Shown piece after piece: positions 11,210 through 26,170 of a stretch of 30,085 nucleotides of DNA; the first letter of the stretch is position 1; every line of letters starts with the position of its first letter. The translations under genes were made by a program, and so were the position numbers. Under the pieces are notes generated by a model. That model did not search any database. It saw only the letters and a list, made by a program, of their open reading frames with translations, and was not told where the DNA came from. Source of the stretch: a virus; IMG/VR virus record IMGVR_UViG_3300030419_003698, positions 1 to 30,085 of that record; one strand, 5' to 3'.

Positions 11210-11866
11210 ATGTTGATAAACCTAATTAAAAAAATAAAAAGTAGGAGTGGAAACTCTCTTGCAGAATTTGCAGTTACTACTGCAATGATGGCAACTCTCG
11301 CGACAACTGCTGCCCCTAAATTTGGTAGTGTTGGTGCAGGTGCCAAGGAAAAGAAAACGATGGCAAACATTGATAAAATTCTAACCGTAGCAAACAACTA
11401 TTATAATGAGGCAGTATCTGAAGAGGGTAAGGGAAGATTTCCTGGACAATCTAAATACGACTCAAAAGTAGGTGGATTTGATTTACCTGCCGATACTGAT
11501 ACAGATGAGGCATTAGAAACATATCTTGAAGATGTTTTAGTTGGTATAACTGGATATACTTCAGACCTAACTGATTTCGTATATGTGTTTTCACCAGCAG
11601 TAGATGATGAAGATGCATTACAAGGTGGTTGGATGAGTGTAGATAGTGATAATGTTCATCAAGTAGATGTTGGTTTTGATGAAGATGGTGCAGTTGCCTT
11701 TAAGAAGAACTTTGGTAATCAAGGAATTGACTCACCCTTTCAGGATGGTGGATACATTTATCTTGTGATACCTGGAAGTGGTAGTGGAACAACTGCAAAG
11801 GCACCTGCCTTACTTGTGGCAGATATTGAGAACCCATTACAAATGCATAAAACACTAACACCATAA
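11210..11866 (+). CDS. type IV pilin-like protein with prepilin cleavage site
   Basis: 218 aa. A short basic leader (MLINLIKKIKSRSG) is followed by NSLAEFAVTTAMMATLATTA. Cleavage after Gly14 would leave Asn1 and Glu5 (E19), the hallmark of class III signal peptides processed by prepilin peptidase, then a hydrophobic helix. The mature part is acidic, rich in Gly and Asp, with a segment near the end (IDSPFQDGGYIYLVIPGSGSG) that looks like a beta-sheet head. It would need host prepilin peptidase and assembly proteins. It is translated from an ATG with AAAGGAG upstream, and the second pilin-like gene follows 22 bases later. It is rare for a phage to carry such genes. Confidence 0.82.
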   Translation: MLINLIKKIKSRSGNSLAEFAVTTAMMATLATTAAPKFGSVGAGAKEKKTMANIDKILTVANNYYNEAVSEEGKGRFPGQSKYDSKVGGFDLPADTDTDEALETYLEDVLVGITGYTSDLTDFVYVFSPAVDDEDALQGGWMSVDSDNVHQVDVGFDEDGAVAFKKNFGNQGIDSPFQDGGYIYLVIPGSGSGTTAKAPALLVADIENPLQMHKTLTP

Positions 11867-11888
11867 GTTAGTAGAGAGGAGATTGGTC

Positions 11889-12323
11889 ATGATAAAAAAT
11901 CAAAAAGGATTTACATTGATTGAGTTAATAATGGTCACTATCATCTTGGGGATTTTAGCCGCAGTGGCAATTCCAAGATACTCTAAAACATTACATCAGG
12001 CAACTGAGGCAGCAGAAAAGACGATGGTAAACCAAATATGGGCAGGATGTGAAGAAGTTGCGAGTACGAGATTGATAGATAATGGAGTAGAAGAATGGCC
12101 TGGTAATCCATTATCAGTTCTAAATAGAACAAGGAATATTAAGGTTAATCTTGAGTTAGGTATACCTGATGAAGATAATGAATGGCAGTTTAGTCGTGAT
12201 ATAGATGGACAAGGTAAATGTGCAATCTTACATCACAGACCAAATGATGAAATATATTATTATGAATATGATTCAACACTATTCTATTTATCTGAAGAAC
12301 CTACTCTTTATATTTCTCAATAG
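11889..12323 (+). CDS. type IV pilin/pseudopilin (GspG-like)
   Basis: 144 aa from ATG 11889, with GAGGAG at 11876-11881. A TTG six bases earlier lies too close to that site. The N-terminus is a textbook prepilin: KNQKG|FTLIELIMVTIILGILAAVAIP, with cleavage after Gly7, Phe+1 and Glu+5 (E12). The head domain is short and has two cysteines (C55 in AGCEEV and one in GKCAIL) that might form a disulfide. The size fits a major pseudopilin or minor pilin. Together with the gene at 11210 it suggests a two-component fibre or an interaction with the host secretion or pilus machine. The end overlaps the next gene. Confidence 0.88.
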   Translation: MIKNQKGFTLIELIMVTIILGILAAVAIPRYSKTLHQATEAAEKTMVNQIWAGCEEVASTRLIDNGVEEWPGNPLSVLNRTRNIKVNLELGIPDEDNEWQFSRDIDGQGKCAILHHRPNDEIYYYEYDSTLFYLSEEPTLYISQ

Positions 12324-14892: not shown

Positions 14893-14985
14893 AAATTAAC
14901 TCATAATCGGTTAATCTATAATAAATATCAATTTTTTTTGCTTTTTTTGAAAAAAAAATGTATTTTGAGAATTTATATACATATA

Positions 14986-15008
14986 TATTAATGTATCAAG
15001 TTTGATAC
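14986..15008. promoter_or_regulatory. operator-like palindrome GTATCAA-GT-TTGATAC, with repeat TATTAATGTATCAAG
   Basis: GTATCAA and TTGATAC (14993-15008) are perfect 7-base arms. The 15-base segment TATTAATGTATCAAG that leads into it (14986-15000) is repeated at 15558-15572 on the far side of the structured RNA. The position between the divergent Lys-rich gene and the RNA fits a repressor or activator site. Confidence 0.5.
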
Positions 15009-15029: not shown

Positions 15030-15420
15030 AATCGGAAAGTACGAGGAGTAATTAACTTCGTATGGGATTGGTCGAATAATGGGTATCCTTTAGAAGCCCA
15101 TAAGACAATCTAAGGTGAGTTCGTGGTGAACCTACAAAGCTGAATGGTGGAGTAGTTGAGACATCAATCATCTAATGTACTTGAAGAAAAAACAATAGAA
15201 ACGATTCTATTGACCTTGTTGTGAGTAAGGGTAATACTGAAATCTCACTTTATGGCTGAATTAATCTAAACTCAGAGAGATAAAGCAATAATACAGGTGT
15301 TGTAACCACTTCAATGAGATTAACCATCTTGAGAAGAATCATCGTAACTGATGGGTGTTAGGTACAAGGTAGAAAAAATCTGAGCTTTAAGTTGTAGGTA
15401 ATCGTTAATCCTACATCCCC
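15030..15420 (+). ncRNA. probable large structured noncoding RNA
   Basis: This stretch has no long open frame, is visibly richer in G and C than the flanks, and can fold into many short helices. Examples: TACGAGG/CTTCGTA (15040-15062), ATGGG/CCCAT (15079-15101), GTTC/GAAC (15119-15131), the 8-bp CAATAGAA/TTCTATTG with ACGA loop (15193-15212), GTGAG/CTCAC (15221-15248), CATC/GATG (15340-15353) and GTAGG/CCTAC (15394-15414). GGGAT at 15064-15068 can pair with ATCCC at 15415-15419 and close the whole domain. ACCTAC at 15130 can also pair with GTAGGT at 15394. I see no tRNA, tmRNA, RNase P or group I intron signature. Large ornate phage RNAs such as GOLLD and ROOL are the nearest known class. Strand is assumed from gene direction and the downstream T-run hairpin. 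Confidence 0.7.
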
Positions 15421-15442
15421 AAAATTTCAAAAATTTAGAATC

Positions 15443-15507
15443 AAGGGTTCAACCTATTTTTAGTTTCCACTTTTATACAGACTTAAAAAAAGACCGAACC
15501 CTTTTTT
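15443..15507 (+). terminator. long-loop hairpin with T-run, possible 3' end of the RNA
   Basis: AAGGGTTC (15443-15450) and GAACCCTT (15496-15503) are perfectly complementary; the T-run (15502-15507) follows. The loop is 45 bases and holds the 16-mer TATACAGACTTAAAAA (15474-15489), so it is not a standard compact terminator. It may be a 3' domain of the RNA instead. Confidence 0.45.
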
Positions 15508-15540
15508 CTTGCAAAAAAATAAAAATAAATTACATTTTTA

Positions 15541-15591
15541 GGTATCGACATGATACTTATTAATGTATCAAGGTTATACTTGATTAATAAA
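15541..15591. promoter_or_regulatory. cluster of GTATC-type palindromes before the gp32-like gene
   Basis: GTATC-GACAT-GATAC at 15542-15556 and ATCAAG-GTTATA-CTTGAT at about 15567-15584 are inverted repeats with the same GTATC/ATCAAG words as the palindrome at 14993. The 15-base repeat TATTAATGTATCAAG is at 15558-15572. They sit 40-85 bases before the gp32-like start, a natural place for a repressor or activator. Confidence 0.5.
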
Positions 15592-15625: not shown

Positions 15626-16396
15626 ATGGACTTAAATGCAATTAAAAAACGCTTAAATCAGTTACAAACAACAAACAATCGCACTTCCAGTTTATGGAAA
15701 CCACAACCAGGAAAAACTCAAATTAGAATTGTTCCTTATGCTTTAAATAAGGATAATCCTTTTATCGAGTTATTCTTTCACTACAATTTAAATAATCGTA
15801 CTTATTTATCACCAACATCTTTTGGTAGACCAGACCCTATTGAAGAGTTTGCAAGTAAACTAAAAGGTAGTGGTAATAAAGAAGATTATCAATTAGCACG
15901 AAAACTTGAAGCAAAGATGAGAACTTTTGCTCCTGTTATTGTTCGTGGTGAAGAGAAACAAGGTGTTAAATTCTGGGGATTCGGTAAGACAGTTTATCAA
16001 GAACTTCTTTCAGTAATCGCTGACCCAGATTATGGTGACATAACAGACCCTGTTAATGGTCGTGATGTAGTGGTTGAGTTTATTTCAGCAGAGGAAAGTG
16101 GAGCATCATTTCCGAAAACTAATATTCGTGTTAAACCAAATCAAACGCCAATTTCAGATGAACCTGATGTTCTTGAAACAGTCAAGAAACAACAGGATAT
16201 TACTGAAATATATCAAGAGTTGTCCTATGAAGACCTTACTGATGTATTAAATGAGTGGTTGAATCCAGATAGTGGAACAGATGAGGCTTCTGATGAAGAA
16301 TCTTCTAAACCTGATACTGTCTCAACTAATGATTTAAAAAATACAAAAGTAGCTTCAACTACTACGGATGCTTTTGATGATTTATTTAATTCATAA
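15626..16396 (+). CDS. 32: gp32-like single-stranded DNA-binding protein
   Basis: 256 aa, somewhat shorter than T4 gp32 (301). The N-terminal KRLNQLQ helix and SLWKPQPGKTQIRIVPY open the OB-fold. The core follows with FFHYNLNNRTYLSPTSFGRPDPI, LEAKMRTFAPVIVRGEEKQGVKFWGFG and YQELLSVIADPDYGDITDP, all typical of phage T4-type SSB. The four-residue Cys/His zinc site of T4 gp32 is absent. The tail is acidic and ends DAFDDLFNS, like the gp32 tail that recruits partner proteins. It coats single-stranded DNA in replication and recombination. The leader is long and holds operator-like palindromes, so regulation here is likely. It stands directly before uvsX. Confidence 0.85.
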   Translation: MDLNAIKKRLNQLQTTNNRTSSLWKPQPGKTQIRIVPYALNKDNPFIELFFHYNLNNRTYLSPTSFGRPDPIEEFASKLKGSGNKEDYQLARKLEAKMRTFAPVIVRGEEKQGVKFWGFGKTVYQELLSVIADPDYGDITDPVNGRDVVVEFISAEESGASFPKTNIRVKPNQTPISDEPDVLETVKKQQDITEIYQELSYEDLTDVLNEWLNPDSGTDEASDEESSKPDTVSTNDLKNTKVASTTTDAFDDLFNS

Positions 16397-20292: not shown

Positions 20293-22302
20293 ATGGAAAA
20301 ATTTAAGTTGTCGGAAAATTTTATAAATAAATATAAAAGAAAAAAGCCACCATTTGGCTTTAACGGATTAGGTGAATTAGTTTATATGAGAACATATTCT
20401 CGTATAAAAGAAAATGGAAAGAATGAAAGATGGTGGGAGACCGTACAACGAGTTGTAGAGGGAACATATTCAATGCAAATGACTTGGATAAATTCTCATC
20501 AATTAGGTTGGAATCCTTGGCAAGCCCAAAAATCAGCCCAAGATATGTATGATAGAATTTTTACAATGAAATTCTTACCACCAGGTCGTGGATTATGGGC
20601 TATGGGAACACCAATAACAGAAGAAAAAGGTTTGTATGCTGCTCTAAATAATTGTGCATTTGTATCTACAAAAACATTAAAAGAGGATTATTCAAAACCT
20701 TTTTGTTTTTTAATGGATGCCTCAATGTTAGGTGTTGGTGTAGGATTTGATACAAAAGGAGCGGGGGAAATAATTGTTAAAGGTATTCAAAAAGATAGAG
20801 ATGAAATAGTTTATCAGATACCAGATACTCGTGAGGGTTGGGTAGAATCAGTTCGTTTATTATTAGAAAGTTATTTTCATGGTCAAGCTCCCGTAGAATT
20901 TGATTACAATTTAATTAGACCAGCGGGTGAGCCAATCAAAGGTTTTGGTGGTGTTGCTAGTGGTTATGAACCATTAGAAGAGGTTCATGAAGATATTAGA
21001 AAAGTATTGGATATAAATACAGGAAAACCAATCACAATCACAACAATCGTAGATATTATGAATCTAATTGGTAAATGTGTTGTAGCAGGTAATGTTAGAA
21101 GAACTGCTGAGATTGTTTTTGGAGACCCACACAACGAAGAATATTTAGATTTAAAAAACTATAAAGTAAATCCACATAGAGACCAATATGGTTGGACATC
21201 AAATAATTCAGTATTTGCAGAGTTGGGTATGGATTATACCGATATCTGTAAAAGAATTGTAGATAATGGTGAACCAGGTTTGGCTTGGTTAGATAATATG
21301 AGACATTTTTCTCGAATGAAAAATGGTGGAGATGATAAAGACCATAGAGTTGCAGGTGGAAATCCTTGTTTAGAACAATCATTAGAATCATATGAGTTAT
21401 GTTGTTTAGTGGAAACATTTCCTAATAATCACGATTCGTTTGAAGACTATGCTCGAACATTGAAATATGCCTATTTGTATGCAAAGACAGTTACATTAGG
21501 TAGAACACATTGGAGTGATACAAATCGTGTGATGTTAAGAAATCGTAGAATAGGTTGTAGTGTAAGTGGTGTTGCTCAGTTTATTACTAATCGTGGATTG
21601 GATAATTTAAGATTATGGTTAGAAGATGGATATGATGTTATACAAGATTGGGATGGAGTTTATAGTGATTGGTTCGCTGTTCCTAAGTCTATTAAGACTA
21701 CAAGTGTAAAACCAAGTGGGACTGTTTCTTTACTGGCTGGTGCAACACCAGGGTTACATTATCCAGAATCAAGATTTTATATTAGAAGAATTAGATTATC
21801 AGTTAATTCGGATTTAATAGAACCATTGAAAAAGGCAGGATATAAAATAGAAAAGGCCTTTGGTTCAGAAGATACCACATTAGTTGTAGAAGTGCCAGTT
21901 GATGTAGGAGAGGGAATAAGAACTGTCAAAGAATTGTCCATTTGGGAACAATTTAGTTTGGCATCATTTATGCAAAGACATTGGGCTGATAACCAAGTAA
22001 GTTGCACAGCAACCTTTGACCCTAAAACTGAAGCAGACCAACTTCCAAATGTATTGAATTATTTTCAGTATAGATTAAAAGGTATTAGTTTATTACCAAG
22101 ACATGATTTAGGTGCTTACAAACAAATGCCATATGAAGCAATCGATGAAAAAGAATACAATAGACAAGTTAAAAAACTTTCAAATCTTTCTTTCGGAGTT
22201 ATTAAAAACGAAGAAGCCGAAATAGATAAATTTTGTAATAATGATAGTTGTGAAATTACACCAATAACAGGTGATAATGACGACCAAGATTATGCAAATT
22301 AG
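20293..22302 (+). CDS. nrdJ: class II (adenosylcobalamin-dependent) ribonucleoside-triphosphate reductase
   Basis: 669 aa, close to the single-chain RTPR type (739 aa in Lactobacillus leichmannii). The catalytic cysteines can be placed: C121 in NNCAF (C119 there), the thiyl radical C359 in NPCLEQSLE with E361, and C370 (C419 there). The C-terminal pair C648/C653 in CNNDSC fits the C-x4-C redox shuttle. VKPSGTVSLLAGATPGLHYP and ASGYEPL are typical of this subclass. It makes dNTPs from NTPs with B12 as radical source and needs no oxygen, which would suit a low-oxygen host. The gene is preceded by a promoter-like region and AGGAG. Confidence 0.9.
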   Translation: MEKFKLSENFINKYKRKKPPFGFNGLGELVYMRTYSRIKENGKNERWWETVQRVVEGTYSMQMTWINSHQLGWNPWQAQKSAQDMYDRIFTMKFLPPGRGLWAMGTPITEEKGLYAALNNCAFVSTKTLKEDYSKPFCFLMDASMLGVGVGFDTKGAGEIIVKGIQKDRDEIVYQIPDTREGWVESVRLLLESYFHGQAPVEFDYNLIRPAGEPIKGFGGVASGYEPLEEVHEDIRKVLDINTGKPITITTIVDIMNLIGKCVVAGNVRRTAEIVFGDPHNEEYLDLKNYKVNPHRDQYGWTSNNSVFAELGMDYTDICKRIVDNGEPGLAWLDNMRHFSRMKNGGDDKDHRVAGGNPCLEQSLESYELCCLVETFPNNHDSFEDYARTLKYAYLYAKTVTLGRTHWSDTNRVMLRNRRIGCSVSGVAQFITNRGLDNLRLWLEDGYDVIQDWDGVYSDWFAVPKSIKTTSVKPSGTVSLLAGATPGLHYPESRFYIRRIRLSVNSDLIEPLKKAGYKIEKAFGSEDTTLVVEVPVDVGEGIRTVKELSIWEQFSLASFMQRHWADNQVSCTATFDPKTEADQLPNVLNYFQYRLKGISLLPRHDLGAYKQMPYEAIDEKEYNRQVKKLSNLSFGVIKNEEAEIDKFCNNDSCEITPITGDNDDQDYAN

Positions 22303-22351: not shown

Positions 22352-22379
22352 ATAATCAAATAACAATAAGGAGATGATT

Positions 22380-25118
22380 ATGAAATTGAAATATCGTAAT
22401 CTATTAGTATCAGTTATGATGATGACTGGATTGTTTGCTCAATCTATAGTTGGAGTTGTAGGTGATTCTAACTCAGAACCGCTTGAAGGAGCTAATGTTG
22501 TAGTTGAAGGCACTGATTTAGGTGGAATGACCAATTCTGATGGTACATTTTCCATTGATGTCGATGCAGGACAGTACAAAGTAACAGCATCTTTCATAGG
22601 TTACAAATCTTTTACTCAATTAGTTGATGTAAAGGATGTTGCAGTAAGTGTTGATTTCTTACTTGAAATTGATGCGGTTGCATTATCAGATGTTGAGGTT
22701 TTGGCCTCAAGAGCTGATGAGAATACACCTGTTGCTTATACAAATGTAGGAAAAGAAGAAATGGAATTTCGTCTTGGTTCTCAAGATGTTCCGATGGCAC
22801 TTAATACTACACCAAGTGTATATGCAACTCAACAAGGTGGTGGTGCGGGTGATGCTCGTATCAATGTAAGAGGTTTTAATCAACGAAATGTTGCTGTTAT
22901 GATTAACGGAGTTCCCCAGAATGATATGGAGAACGGATGGGTTTATTGGTCTAATTGGGATGGTGTTGCAGATGCAGCCCAATCAATTCAGATGCAAAGA
23001 GGTTTATCCGCCGTTAATTTAGCTACCCCTTCCATTGGTGGAACAATGAACATCATAACCGACCCTGCTCAGTATGAAAAGGGTGGAAAGTTCAAACAAG
23101 AAGCTGGTGATGGTGGTTTTCTAAAAACAACCATTAACTATAATACTGGTCTAATTAATGACAAGTTAGCTTTAAGTGGAACTATTGTTCGTAAAACAGG
23201 TGATGGAATAATCGATGCTACTTGGACAGATGCATGGGCATATTATTTAGGTTCAAGTTATCAACTAAATGAAGATAACAGATTTGAATTATATGCAATC
23301 GGTGCTCCACAACGACATGGACAAAATCTATACAAACAGAATATTGCTACATACTCACAAGAGTTAGCTGGTAGTATTGATGGATATGATACTGAAGCAT
23401 TTGCTGAAGGTAACAAATTCGAAACTGAAGCTGGTAGATTGTTCAATCAGAATTGGGGAGCTGTAGACCCATCATATAAAGGCCAACAATATTGGTATAT
23501 GTATGGTGCAAGAACAACCGATAGGTATAGTCCTAACTTTCTTAATGAAAGGGAAAACTTCTTCCACAAACCATTAGTTAACTTAAATCATTTTATGACA
23601 ATAAATGACCAAACTCGTTTGAGTTCTGTTCTTTATTGGAGTGGTGGTTCAGGTGGTGGTACTGGTACATATGGTAGTGTATCAAGAACACCAGCAGTTG
23701 ATGGTAATTCATGGTGGGCAAGTTCACCCTGGCAATGGGATTGGAATGCTGAGATTGAACAAAATCGTACTAACATAGATGCAGACTGGTCAGAAACAGA
23801 ACATCGTTCAACAGGTATACTTCGTAACTCAATTAATCGTCAAAACACTTATGGTTTGATTTCTAAATTAAACTATGATGTTTCAGATGAACTTGAAGTT
23901 CAAGTTGGTGTTGATTGGAGAACTGCTGGTATAGAACACGCTCGTGAAGTTCGTGATTTATTAGGTGGTGATTATTATGTTGATTTTGCTGACGATAATG
24001 CACCTGATGGTAAGAAAGTTGGTTTAGGTGATATAATTGCTTATCATAATTCAACGACTGTAGATTGGTTAGGTGGGTTCATACAAGGTAAGTATGAAAC
24101 TGAAAAACTAAATGTATATGGTATGGGTGGAGTTTCAAGTATTGAATACTCTTATCAAGACCATTTCACAGTCGAGAATGAAGTGATTAAGGCTGACCCA
24201 ATTACTACTTATCAAGTTAAAGGTGGTGGATTATATAGATTAAATGATGGTTTGAGTGTATTTGGTAATGCTGGATATGTTCAGAAACCACCAATTATGG
24301 ATAATGTAATTTACTATGATGGTACAGTCTCAACAGACCCTGCTAATGAGAAATTTATTTCTACAGAAGCTGGTTTAAACTATTCTGCAGAAAAATTTGC
24401 AGTTAAAGTTAGTGGGTATAACACAGATTGGCAAGATAGAAACTTGACTAAAGCAGTATCTACTGGTCAAGGTTCATCAGGTGATACTGATGTTATCTTT
24501 TTAAGAGGTGTTAACCAAAATCATCAAGGTATAGAAGTTGAAACTAAAGTTCATCCACATGATTTGGTAGAACTTGATTTTATTGCTTCATTTGGTAAAT
24601 GGAAATTCGATGGTGATGCTGATGGAACTTATCAAGAACAAGAGTTCAATGAGAATGGTGAAGTCACAGGATTGACAACTACTGAATATTCTTATGCACT
24701 TGATGGATTGTTTGTAGGTGACCAACCACAAACATCTTATATCTTAGGTTTAACACTTAAACCAGTTAAGGGATTAAGATTACAGGCACTTTACAAAACA
24801 TATGATAAAAACTACTCTGATTGGAGCCCTTCGGCTCGTGAAATTGAAGAGGGAGTTGCTGATAGAGCTCAAGTTTGGGAAGCCCCAGGTTACTCAAAAC
24901 TTGATTTACACGCATCATATAAACTTCCAAGTGTTGCTGGTTTAGATTTGACATTAACAGGTCATATCTTCAATGCACTTGATGAAGTATTTGTTCAAGA
25001 TGCCGTAGATAATAGCCAATATAATGCTTGGGGTGATAAAGTACACGCGGCACACAACGCTGAAGTATTTTTAGGAACACCACGATATGCAAATATTGGA
25101 TTGACTGTTAATTTCTAA
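22380..25118 (+). CDS. TonB-dependent outer-membrane receptor with carboxypeptidase-regulatory-like domain
   Basis: 912 aa from ATG 22380; the ATG at 22374 touches the AGGAG site, so 22380 is preferred. A signal peptide (LLVSVMMMTGLFAQ) is followed by a CarboxypepD_reg-like domain with PLEGANVVVEGTDLGG and TNSDGTFSIDVDAGQY (about 30-95). The plug domain follows (DVPMALNTTPSVYATQQGGG, then RINVRGFNQRNVAVMINGVP), and then a full beta-barrel with aromatic girdles, ending in the outer-membrane signature IGLTVNF. It looks intact, with no frameshift. Such receptors import siderophores, vitamin B12 or glycans using TonB. In a phage it might raise nutrient uptake, replace a receptor or block other phages. 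FCB-type architecture points to the host. Confidence 0.9.
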   Translation: MKLKYRNLLVSVMMMTGLFAQSIVGVVGDSNSEPLEGANVVVEGTDLGGMTNSDGTFSIDVDAGQYKVTASFIGYKSFTQLVDVKDVAVSVDFLLEIDAVALSDVEVLASRADENTPVAYTNVGKEEMEFRLGSQDVPMALNTTPSVYATQQGGGAGDARINVRGFNQRNVAVMINGVPQNDMENGWVYWSNWDGVADAAQSIQMQRGLSAVNLATPSIGGTMNIITDPAQYEKGGKFKQEAGDGGFLKTTINYNTGLINDKLALSGTIVRKTGDGIIDATWTDAWAYYLGSSYQLNEDNRFELYAIGAPQRHGQNLYKQNIATYSQELAGSIDGYDTEAFAEGNKFETEAGRLFNQNWGAVDPSYKGQQYWYMYGARTTDRYSPNFLNERENFFHKPLVNLNHFMTINDQTRLSSVLYWSGGSGGGTGTYGSVSRTPAVDGNSWWASSPWQWDWNAEIEQNRTNIDADWSETEHRSTGILRNSINRQNTYGLISKLNYDVSDELEVQVGVDWRTAGIEHAREVRDLLGGDYYVDFADDNAPDGKKVGLGDIIAYHNSTTVDWLGGFIQGKYETEKLNVYGMGGVSSIEYSYQDHFTVENEVIKADPITTYQVKGGGLYRLNDGLSVFGNAGYVQKPPIMDNVIYYDGTVSTDPANEKFISTEAGLNYSAEKFAVKVSGYNTDWQDRNLTKAVSTGQGSSGDTDVIFLRGVNQNHQGIEVETKVHPHDLVELDFIASFGKWKFDGDADGTYQEQEFNENGEVTGLTTTEYSYALDGLFVGDQPQTSYILGLTLKPVKGLRLQALYKTYDKNYSDWSPSAREIEEGVADRAQVWEAPGYSKLDLHASYKLPSVAGLDLTLTGHIFNALDEVFVQDAVDNSQYNAWGDKVHAAHNAEVFLGTPRYANIGLTVNF

Positions 25119-25180: not shown

Positions 25181-26170
25181 ATGCATAAATTAGAATATCT
25201 TTGGTTGGATGGTTGTACACCAACGCAAATAAGGTACAAAACAAAAGTTGTGAAAGATTTTGGCAAATCAGTAGAAGGTGTGCCAGTTTGGGGATTCGAT
25301 GGAAGTTCTACTCAACAAGCAGAAGGTAACAATTCTGATTGTGTTTTAAAACCTGTAAGAGTTTATGAGAATCCATTAGAAAAAGAAAGTTCAATAGTTT
25401 TATGTGAAGTATGGAATGTAAATGATACACCACATGAAACAAATACAAGAAGAAAGTTAGAGGAAACCATTTTAGATATAGAAGATGATATTGACGAATG
25501 GGTAGGATTTGAACAAGAATATACATTCTATGAAAATGGATGGCCTTATGGTTGGCCACCACTTGATGAACCAGCACCACAAGGGGATTATTATTGTGGT
25601 AGAAACATTGGTGATAGAATTTCAAGACAACATTTAAATGCATGTATTAAAGCAGGTATTAGTATTTGTGGAACAAACGCAGAAGTTATGTTAGGACAAT
25701 GGGAATATCAGATTGGTGCAGGTGGTTCAATCCATATGAGTGATGATTTATGGGTAGCAAGATGGTTGATGGAAAGAATTTGTGAAAAATGGGGATTAGA
25801 AGTTTCATTACATCCAAAGCCAATTCAAGGTGATTGGAATGGTGCTGGTTGTCATACTAATTTCTCTACAAAATGGATGAGAGAAGAGGGTGGATGGGAT
25901 AAGATAATTGAAGCTTGTGAAAAGTTATCAGAAAATCCACAAGAACATATTGAAGTTTATGGTGAAGATAACGAACAAAGATTAACAGGTGAACACGAAA
26001 CTTGTTCTATTAATGAATTTCGTTATGGTGTTTCAGATAGAGGAGCATCTATTCGTATTCCATGGCAAGTAGAAGTAGATGGTTGTGGTTATTTAGAAGA
26101 TAGAAGACCATCATCTAACTGCGACCCATATATTGTTGCAGAAAAGTTGGTATCTACGATTTGTAAATGA
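25181..26170 (+). CDS. glnII: type II (eukaryote-like) glutamine synthetase
   Basis: 329 aa, the size of GSII rather than the larger GSI. The family motifs are all there: WGFDGSST at 37-44, FEQEYT with E111 and E113 as metal ligands, GWPPLDEPAPQGDYYCG, NAEVMLGQWEYQIG from 166, GDWNGAGCHTNFST at 217-230, RGASIRIP at 287-294 and EDRRPSSNCDPY at 306-317. The enzyme joins ammonia to glutamate with ATP. GSII lacks the adenylylation site used to switch GSI off, so it would be hard for the host to silence. The start ATG has TTGAGGA upstream. It sits between the TonB receptor and the DNA polymerase, so nitrogen supply for nucleotide synthesis is a reasonable role. Active residues appear intact. Confidence 0.92.
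   Translation: MHKLEYLWLDGCTPTQIRYKTKVVKDFGKSVEGVPVWGFDGSSTQQAEGNNSDCVLKPVRVYENPLEKESSIVLCEVWNVNDTPHETNTRRKLEETILDIEDDIDEWVGFEQEYTFYENGWPYGWPPLDEPAPQGDYYCGRNIGDRISRQHLNACIKAGISICGTNAEVMLGQWEYQIGAGGSIHMSDDLWVARWLMERICEKWGLEVSLHPKPIQGDWNGAGCHTNFSTKWMREEGGWDKIIEACEKLSENPQEHIEVYGEDNEQRLTGEHETCSINEFRYGVSDRGASIRIPWQVEVDGCGYLEDRRPSSNCDPYIVAEKLVSTICK

Follow-up and report, generated by a model that had tools for sequence, protein, structure and literature searches.

A tandem manA RNA with predicted exchange of P4 strands upstream of gp32 in T4-like phages

The window, meaning the whole stretch of DNA that was analysed, is a 30,085-base fragment of a T4-like marine virus which encodes gp32, UvsX, an exonuclease, a DnaB-type helicase, a DNA polymerase and a sliding clamp. 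Beside these replication genes, where the original prediction had placed a structured RNA of ~390 nt, lies a conserved RNA of ~385 nt with comparative support from 32 homologues (Table 1). The stretch is free of genes as had been stated, with no open reading frame of 60 or more amino acids and with indels among the homologues that are not multiples of three, and its G+C content (36.6%) is indeed higher than that of its flanks (19.9% upstream, 23.0% downstream).

Table 1. Positions of the RNA, its predicted parts and its neighbours in the window
Feature	Position	Strand	Evidence
Promoter-like block TTGAGA...TATATATT, 5′ of the RNA	14965..14989	+	Consensus in 39/46 relatives
Tandem manA (predicted), whole structured domain	15037..15421	+	Two Rfam matches; 18 helices
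5′ hairpin P0	15039..15063	+	97% paired; 5/8 pairs changed on both sides
First manA copy	15040..15251	+	cmscan of 5′ half, 31.0 bits; 39–40 bits in relatives
P1 5′ strand GGGAT, closes domain	15064..15068	+	Pairs with 15415–15419 in 32/32; covaries
P4 strand a1 of copy 1, predicted to pair with b2	15179..15186	+	8/8 pairs covary, 89% paired
P4 strand b1 of copy 1, predicted to pair with a2	15213..15219	+	95.5% paired, 4 pairs double-changed
P5 hairpin of copy 1, GGUA...AAUC signature	15221..15248	+	Rfam matches and covariation structure
Second manA copy	15235..15419	+	RF01745, 66.6 bits
P4 strand a2 of copy 2, predicted to pair with b1	15364..15370	+	95.5% paired, 4 pairs double-changed
P4 strand b2 of copy 2, predicted to pair with a1	15385..15392	+	8/8 pairs covary, 89% paired
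P5 hairpin of copy 2	15394..15414	+	100% paired, covaries
P1 3′ strand ATCCC	15415..15419	+	Pairs with 15064–15068 in 32/32; covaries
Terminator-like hairpin AAGGGTTC/GAACCCTT, T-run, conserved apical A+T stem	15443..15508	+	55/59 tandem relatives
Conserved block GATACTTATT between terminator and gp32, possible gp32 promoter	15552..15561	+	20/45 relatives
gp32-type single-strand DNA-binding protein, usual neighbour	15626..16396	+	PHROG 1192, E 3.8e-20

The RNA had been taken to belong to no recognised family, a view that did not survive comparison with Rfam. A scan of the window against Rfam release 15 returned a single match, to manA (RF01745), which covers only the 3′ half of the RNA and exceeds the gathering cut-off of 55.2 bits. 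When the 5′ half was scanned alone it aligned to positions 1–192 of the same model (E 1.4e-6) with a score below that cut-off, and its absence from the joint scan is presumably owed to overlap with the stronger 3′ match. Relatives G005, G007 and G012 each give two separate manA matches (39–40 and 53–61 bits), as do G029 and G035. As both halves match the full-length RF01745 model, the RNA is, by covariance model, two manA cores in tandem, and it is the doubled form that is previously unlisted, not the family. manA was described in 2010 by Weinberg et al. (PMC2864571), who, like Rfam, class it as a cis-regulatory element and candidate riboswitch. Beyond that description, our search of the literature for tandem manA or manA function found only Rfam/CaCoFold updates and one cyanophage annotation, and blastn against named phage records found no homologue of the RNA.

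Relatives were collected from IMG/VR in two steps, first by a search with UvsX and gp32, the proteins encoded next to the RNA, and after that by DNA patterns taken from the RNA itself. This yielded at least 85 distinct tandem sequences like that of the window (clade 1) and, among the matches listed, 19 full-length tandem sequences of a further clade that is more diverged (clade 2); a separate pattern fetched at least 104 distinct single manA RNAs. The long contigs of the tandem clade carry one tandem manA site apiece. Chance resemblance of an unrelated, new RNA family to manA is extremely improbable: the low score of the 5′ half and the scores of 34–45 bits in clade 2 would suit it, but several relatives have two adjacent full-length matches, the helix order and signature loops are those of manA, and the tandem profile also matches a single cyanophage-type manA (L164, E 3e-4). 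A new family was accordingly ruled out on the Rfam matches to both halves. GOLLD and ROOL, previously suggested as the nearest class, resemble this RNA as large structured phage RNAs that are probably expressed separately, but neither gave an Rfam match in the window even at E 5, manA alone reaching the cut-off, and in size and helices the RNA agrees with manA. No tRNA or tmRNA was found by ARAGORN or Rfam, as had been anticipated.

The TonB-dependent receptor of the window is closest to Marinimicrobia sequences, which account for most of its 58 matches (a few records carry other labels and are possibly misbinned), and for this reason the host is likely to be a member of the Marinimicrobia. 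In 25 host-type genomes with related TonB receptors, a search for manA gave no match in 24 and one weak match of 24 bits in the other. A host origin of the RNA was rejected on this count, which argues that the RNA is the phage's own. With this RNA the known range of manA extends from cyanophages to phages probably infecting Marinimicrobia. The receptor itself (22374–25118) has plug and carboxypeptidase-like domains and is unusual cargo for a T4-like phage; the phage also carries a class II (B12-dependent) ribonucleotide reductase (20293–22302), a glutamine synthetase (25181–26170) and two prepilin-like proteins (11210–12323), one of which has the N-methylation motif PF07963.

The evidence for the fold comes from an alignment (A1) of 32 tandem homologues. 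Its 18 helices and 99 pairs are formed in 94.8% of cells, against 77.7% in shuffled alignments and 38–45% in slid controls, and the covariation score is 0.548 against 0.10–0.14 for the slid controls, over which a structure partly derived from A1 itself is favoured. Changes on both sides were seen in 68 pairs, and double-sided compensations amount to 596 cells against 167 when shuffled, counted as sequences and not as independent events. The key helices are repeated in clade 2, which lies mostly outside A1. The folding energy of −88.1 kcal/mol is within chance (16 of 100 dinucleotide shuffles were as good; z = −0.93), and the proof is therefore comparative, not thermodynamic; the energy z-score was dropped as evidence of structure. 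The closing GGGAT/ATCCC helix was correctly foreseen and occurs in three versions (GGGAU:AUCCC, GGAAU:AUUCC and GGGGU:ACCCC), while a second long-range helix, proposed between ACCTAC at 15130 and GTAGGT at 15394, was rejected, as it pairs in 74% of cells and competes for bases used by well-supported local helices.

This closing helix, P1, takes its 5′ strand from copy 1 and its 3′ strand from copy 2, which leaves neither copy with a separate P1. Inside it, the predicted structure places two successive cores, each made up of P2/P2a, a P3 domain of three hairpins, P4 and P5. Single manA RNAs share with this structure the helix order P0–P1–P2/P2a–P3(abc)–P4–P5, the GAAUAA and UAAGG internal loop and the GGUA...AAUCC loop of P5, along with their occurrence in T4-like marine phages and a frequent gp32 neighbourhood; the tandem form differs in enclosing two cores in one P1. 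P1, P2/P2a, P3 with its hairpins and P5 are present in both copies, the P1 being common to the two. The Rfam model (192 positions) spans a single copy per match and sets the 5′ hairpin of copy 2 in the wrong place, taking the P5 hairpin of copy 1 for it.

The most marked departure from single manA concerns P4. In single manA RNAs (n = 88) the two strands of P4 pair with each other (mean score 15.7), whereas in the tandem RNA self-pairing within each copy is poor in every register and was rejected, and by covariation the strands are swapped between the copies, the 5′ strand of copy 1 (a1) pairing with the 3′ strand of copy 2 (b2) and the 3′ strand of copy 1 (b1) with the 5′ strand of copy 2 (a2). 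The best 6-bp registers pair in 89% (a1:b2) and 97% (b1:a2) of cases, compared with 73% for a1:b1 and 64% for a2:b2. Pairing scores are 17.4 and 15.8 for the exchanged helices against 8.3 and 6.9 for self-paired ones in clade 1, and 16.1 and 15.0 against 7.6 and 8.1 in clade 2. Within clade 1 the complementary variants of a1:b2 include ACTTTCAG/CTGAAAGT, ATTTCCGT/ACGGAAAT and ATCTTCTG/CGGAAGAT, and a1:b2 spans 8 bp in 17 of the 17 group-2 sequences scored; it is broken in L014 and partly kept in L002 and L010. Minimum-energy folding of the window's RNA without constraints gives these exchanged helices as well, in an arrangement that is nested and without a pseudoknot.

Since its P4 strands pair across the copies and not locally inside one core, the RNA is a variant of manA and not a plain member. 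In the predicted structure, exchange of P4 joins the two cores into one fused, dimer-like fold; an equivalent description is that of one manA core, circularly permuted, inside the P4 of another. We hold this architecture alone (the doubling, the fold and the exchanged helices) to be highly probable from the comparative data; the original prediction had overlooked both the tandem cores and the exchanged strands. Tandem riboswitches, e.g. those for glycine, also have two homologous domains in one RNA, but these stand side by side, each with its own helices, while in tandem manA the two copies contribute strands to common helices and neither a ligand nor an expression platform is evident. A broader idea, which we regard as unlikely, is that manA RNAs, encoded by phages, act in trans and require two cores to work, with single copies pairing through P4 exchange and the present lineage having fixed the dimer as one molecule. 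If manA did need two cores in trans, the riboswitch label of the family would be wrong.

On both sides the RNA is bordered by conserved elements. A block of the form TT[TG]RR-N13-20-TATATA is present upstream, with little variation in distance, in 39 of 46 relatives (shuffled 1.5), and a hairpin with a T-run, the predicted 8-bp one with arms at 15443–15450 and 15496–15503, is found within 160 nt downstream in 55 of 59 tandem relatives (shuffled 1.4) as against 18 of 89 single manA RNAs (shuffled 3.0), the −35/−10 and terminator calls being consensus matches. An own terminator is therefore a nearly constant feature of the tandem form. The basal stem of the hairpin varies freely in sequence between relatives, and the apical stem follows the pattern ATTTTTAGTTTCCAC...AAACTTAAAAA. 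Between terminator and gp32, the motif TA[TC]A[CT]TTAT[TA] stands at a fixed distance in 20 of 45 relatives (shuffled 0.8); in L332, L375 and L377, which have another neighbour in place of gp32, a promoter-like TTGAC...TATATT precedes the next gene. Operators had also been proposed on both sides: palindromes are present, but their sequence varies between close relatives and a 5′ hairpin of the transcript explains them equally well. As covarying 5′ hairpins, the upstream palindromes are suggestive by eye, with stems of 7.7 bp against 7.0 bp when shuffled in what is a weak test.

Unlike the variable basal stem, the apical part of the terminator (15456–15495, ATTTTTAGTTTCCAC...ACTTAAAAA) has a conserved sequence. 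There is one occurrence of it per genome, which led us to reject a genome-wide repeat. In most long contigs it adjoins tandem manA, and it is found without manA in L042 and L094, upstream of gp32. It is possibly a protein site or a specialised terminator.

With a promoter-like block before it, a terminator after it and no antiterminator pairing, tandem manA appears on balance to be a non-coding RNA gene in its own right and not a switch at the head of an mRNA. The conserved flanks suggest a transcript of ~0.4–0.5 kb running from its own promoter to its own terminator. This reading has to be weighed against its main rival, a cis-acting leader in which a ligand- or protein-responsive attenuator decides passage through the terminator into gp32–uvsX, either as a tandem riboswitch-like element or through gp32 autoregulation as in T4. 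The classification of manA as cis-regulatory speaks for such a leader, as do the position of RNA and terminator, which in most tandem relatives immediately precede gp32, and the frequent placement of cyanophage single manA just before gp32-like ORFs starting MSFxxLKK. Many single manA RNAs are followed by an ORF at 25–40 nt, so action in cis is possible for the family, and among the tandem loci L293 and L349 lack a terminator and have a start codon ~60 nt downstream, the layout of a 5′-UTR, while L459 also lacks a terminator; these three count against a separate unit. In most relatives the terminator and the promoter-like block after it separate the RNA from gp32. Complementarity between terminator arms and RNA is no greater within a locus (12.41) than between loci (12.45), and without such locus-specific complementarity, and with a variable stem, an antiterminator switch of the riboswitch kind is not supported. 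Nor is the spacing of RNA and terminator fixed, and an extra element of ~135 nt intervenes in five clade 2 loci (L453, L454, L456, L461 and L484), and the downstream gene is a different one in L293, L296, L332, L375 and L377. We therefore rate the leader as rather unlikely, though it is the strongest of the alternatives. The ~135-nt element (CTCGGAGGATAACCGATGAC...CGGATGGTATCTAAAGAGGGACGG) occurs in 15 contigs in all and has a predicted fold and no Rfam match.

The neighbourhood of single manA bears on the same question. Many of the ORFs directly downstream start with MSFxxLKK and are presumably cyanophage gp32, and other neighbours are unrelated (transaldolase-like, HAD-like, tRNAs), which again sits poorly with a gp32 leader. 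The association with gp32 thus spans single and tandem forms, yet gp32 is not the sole neighbour, a point against a regulator specific to gp32. In T4 the gene 32 mRNA leader is an autoregulatory pseudoknot, likewise a structured RNA upstream of gp32; tandem manA is far larger, is separated from gp32 by a terminator and is not confined to gp32.

A third explanation, that manA is a general module of the 5′ ends of phage transcripts that was doubled in this lineage, draws on the same loci. The module might act in stability or processing, or as a put-like RNA antiterminator letting RNA polymerase pass nearby terminators. A TATA-type box stands immediately upstream of single manA in 69 of 84 loci (shuffled 16), unrelated genes follow, and terminator-like hairpins follow single manA in 18 of 89 cases and tandem manA in 55 of 59, all of which would fit. 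Most single copies, however, have no such hairpin, and the promoter-like block after the terminator in the tandem clade would be unnecessary if polymerase read through; we consider this explanation improbable.

We favour, as somewhat more probable than not being so, the composite reading of a tandem manA with exchanged P4 strands that is transcribed separately as a non-coding RNA and acts in trans as a two-sited scaffold. Such a structured scaffold might hold a protein or another partner during infection, and it would not serve to switch gp32 in response to a metabolite. For manA, a riboswitch candidate that has lacked a ligand since 2010, a doubled form with shared helices, its own terminator and no constant downstream gene places a strong constraint on what the family does; the alignment of natural variants is now on offer for structure work.

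Two further observations concern single manA. In L163, L183, L198 and L228 it is followed directly by a tRNA gene or tRNA-like sequence and not by a protein gene. Just 3′ of it in L171, L172, L174, L177, L199, L229 and others is a hairpin, AGACCTAAGATGCAACTC...GAGTGGGGCAGATGGTCT, without an Rfam match at gathering, often with a T-run and conserved in sequence among cyanophage-like contigs.
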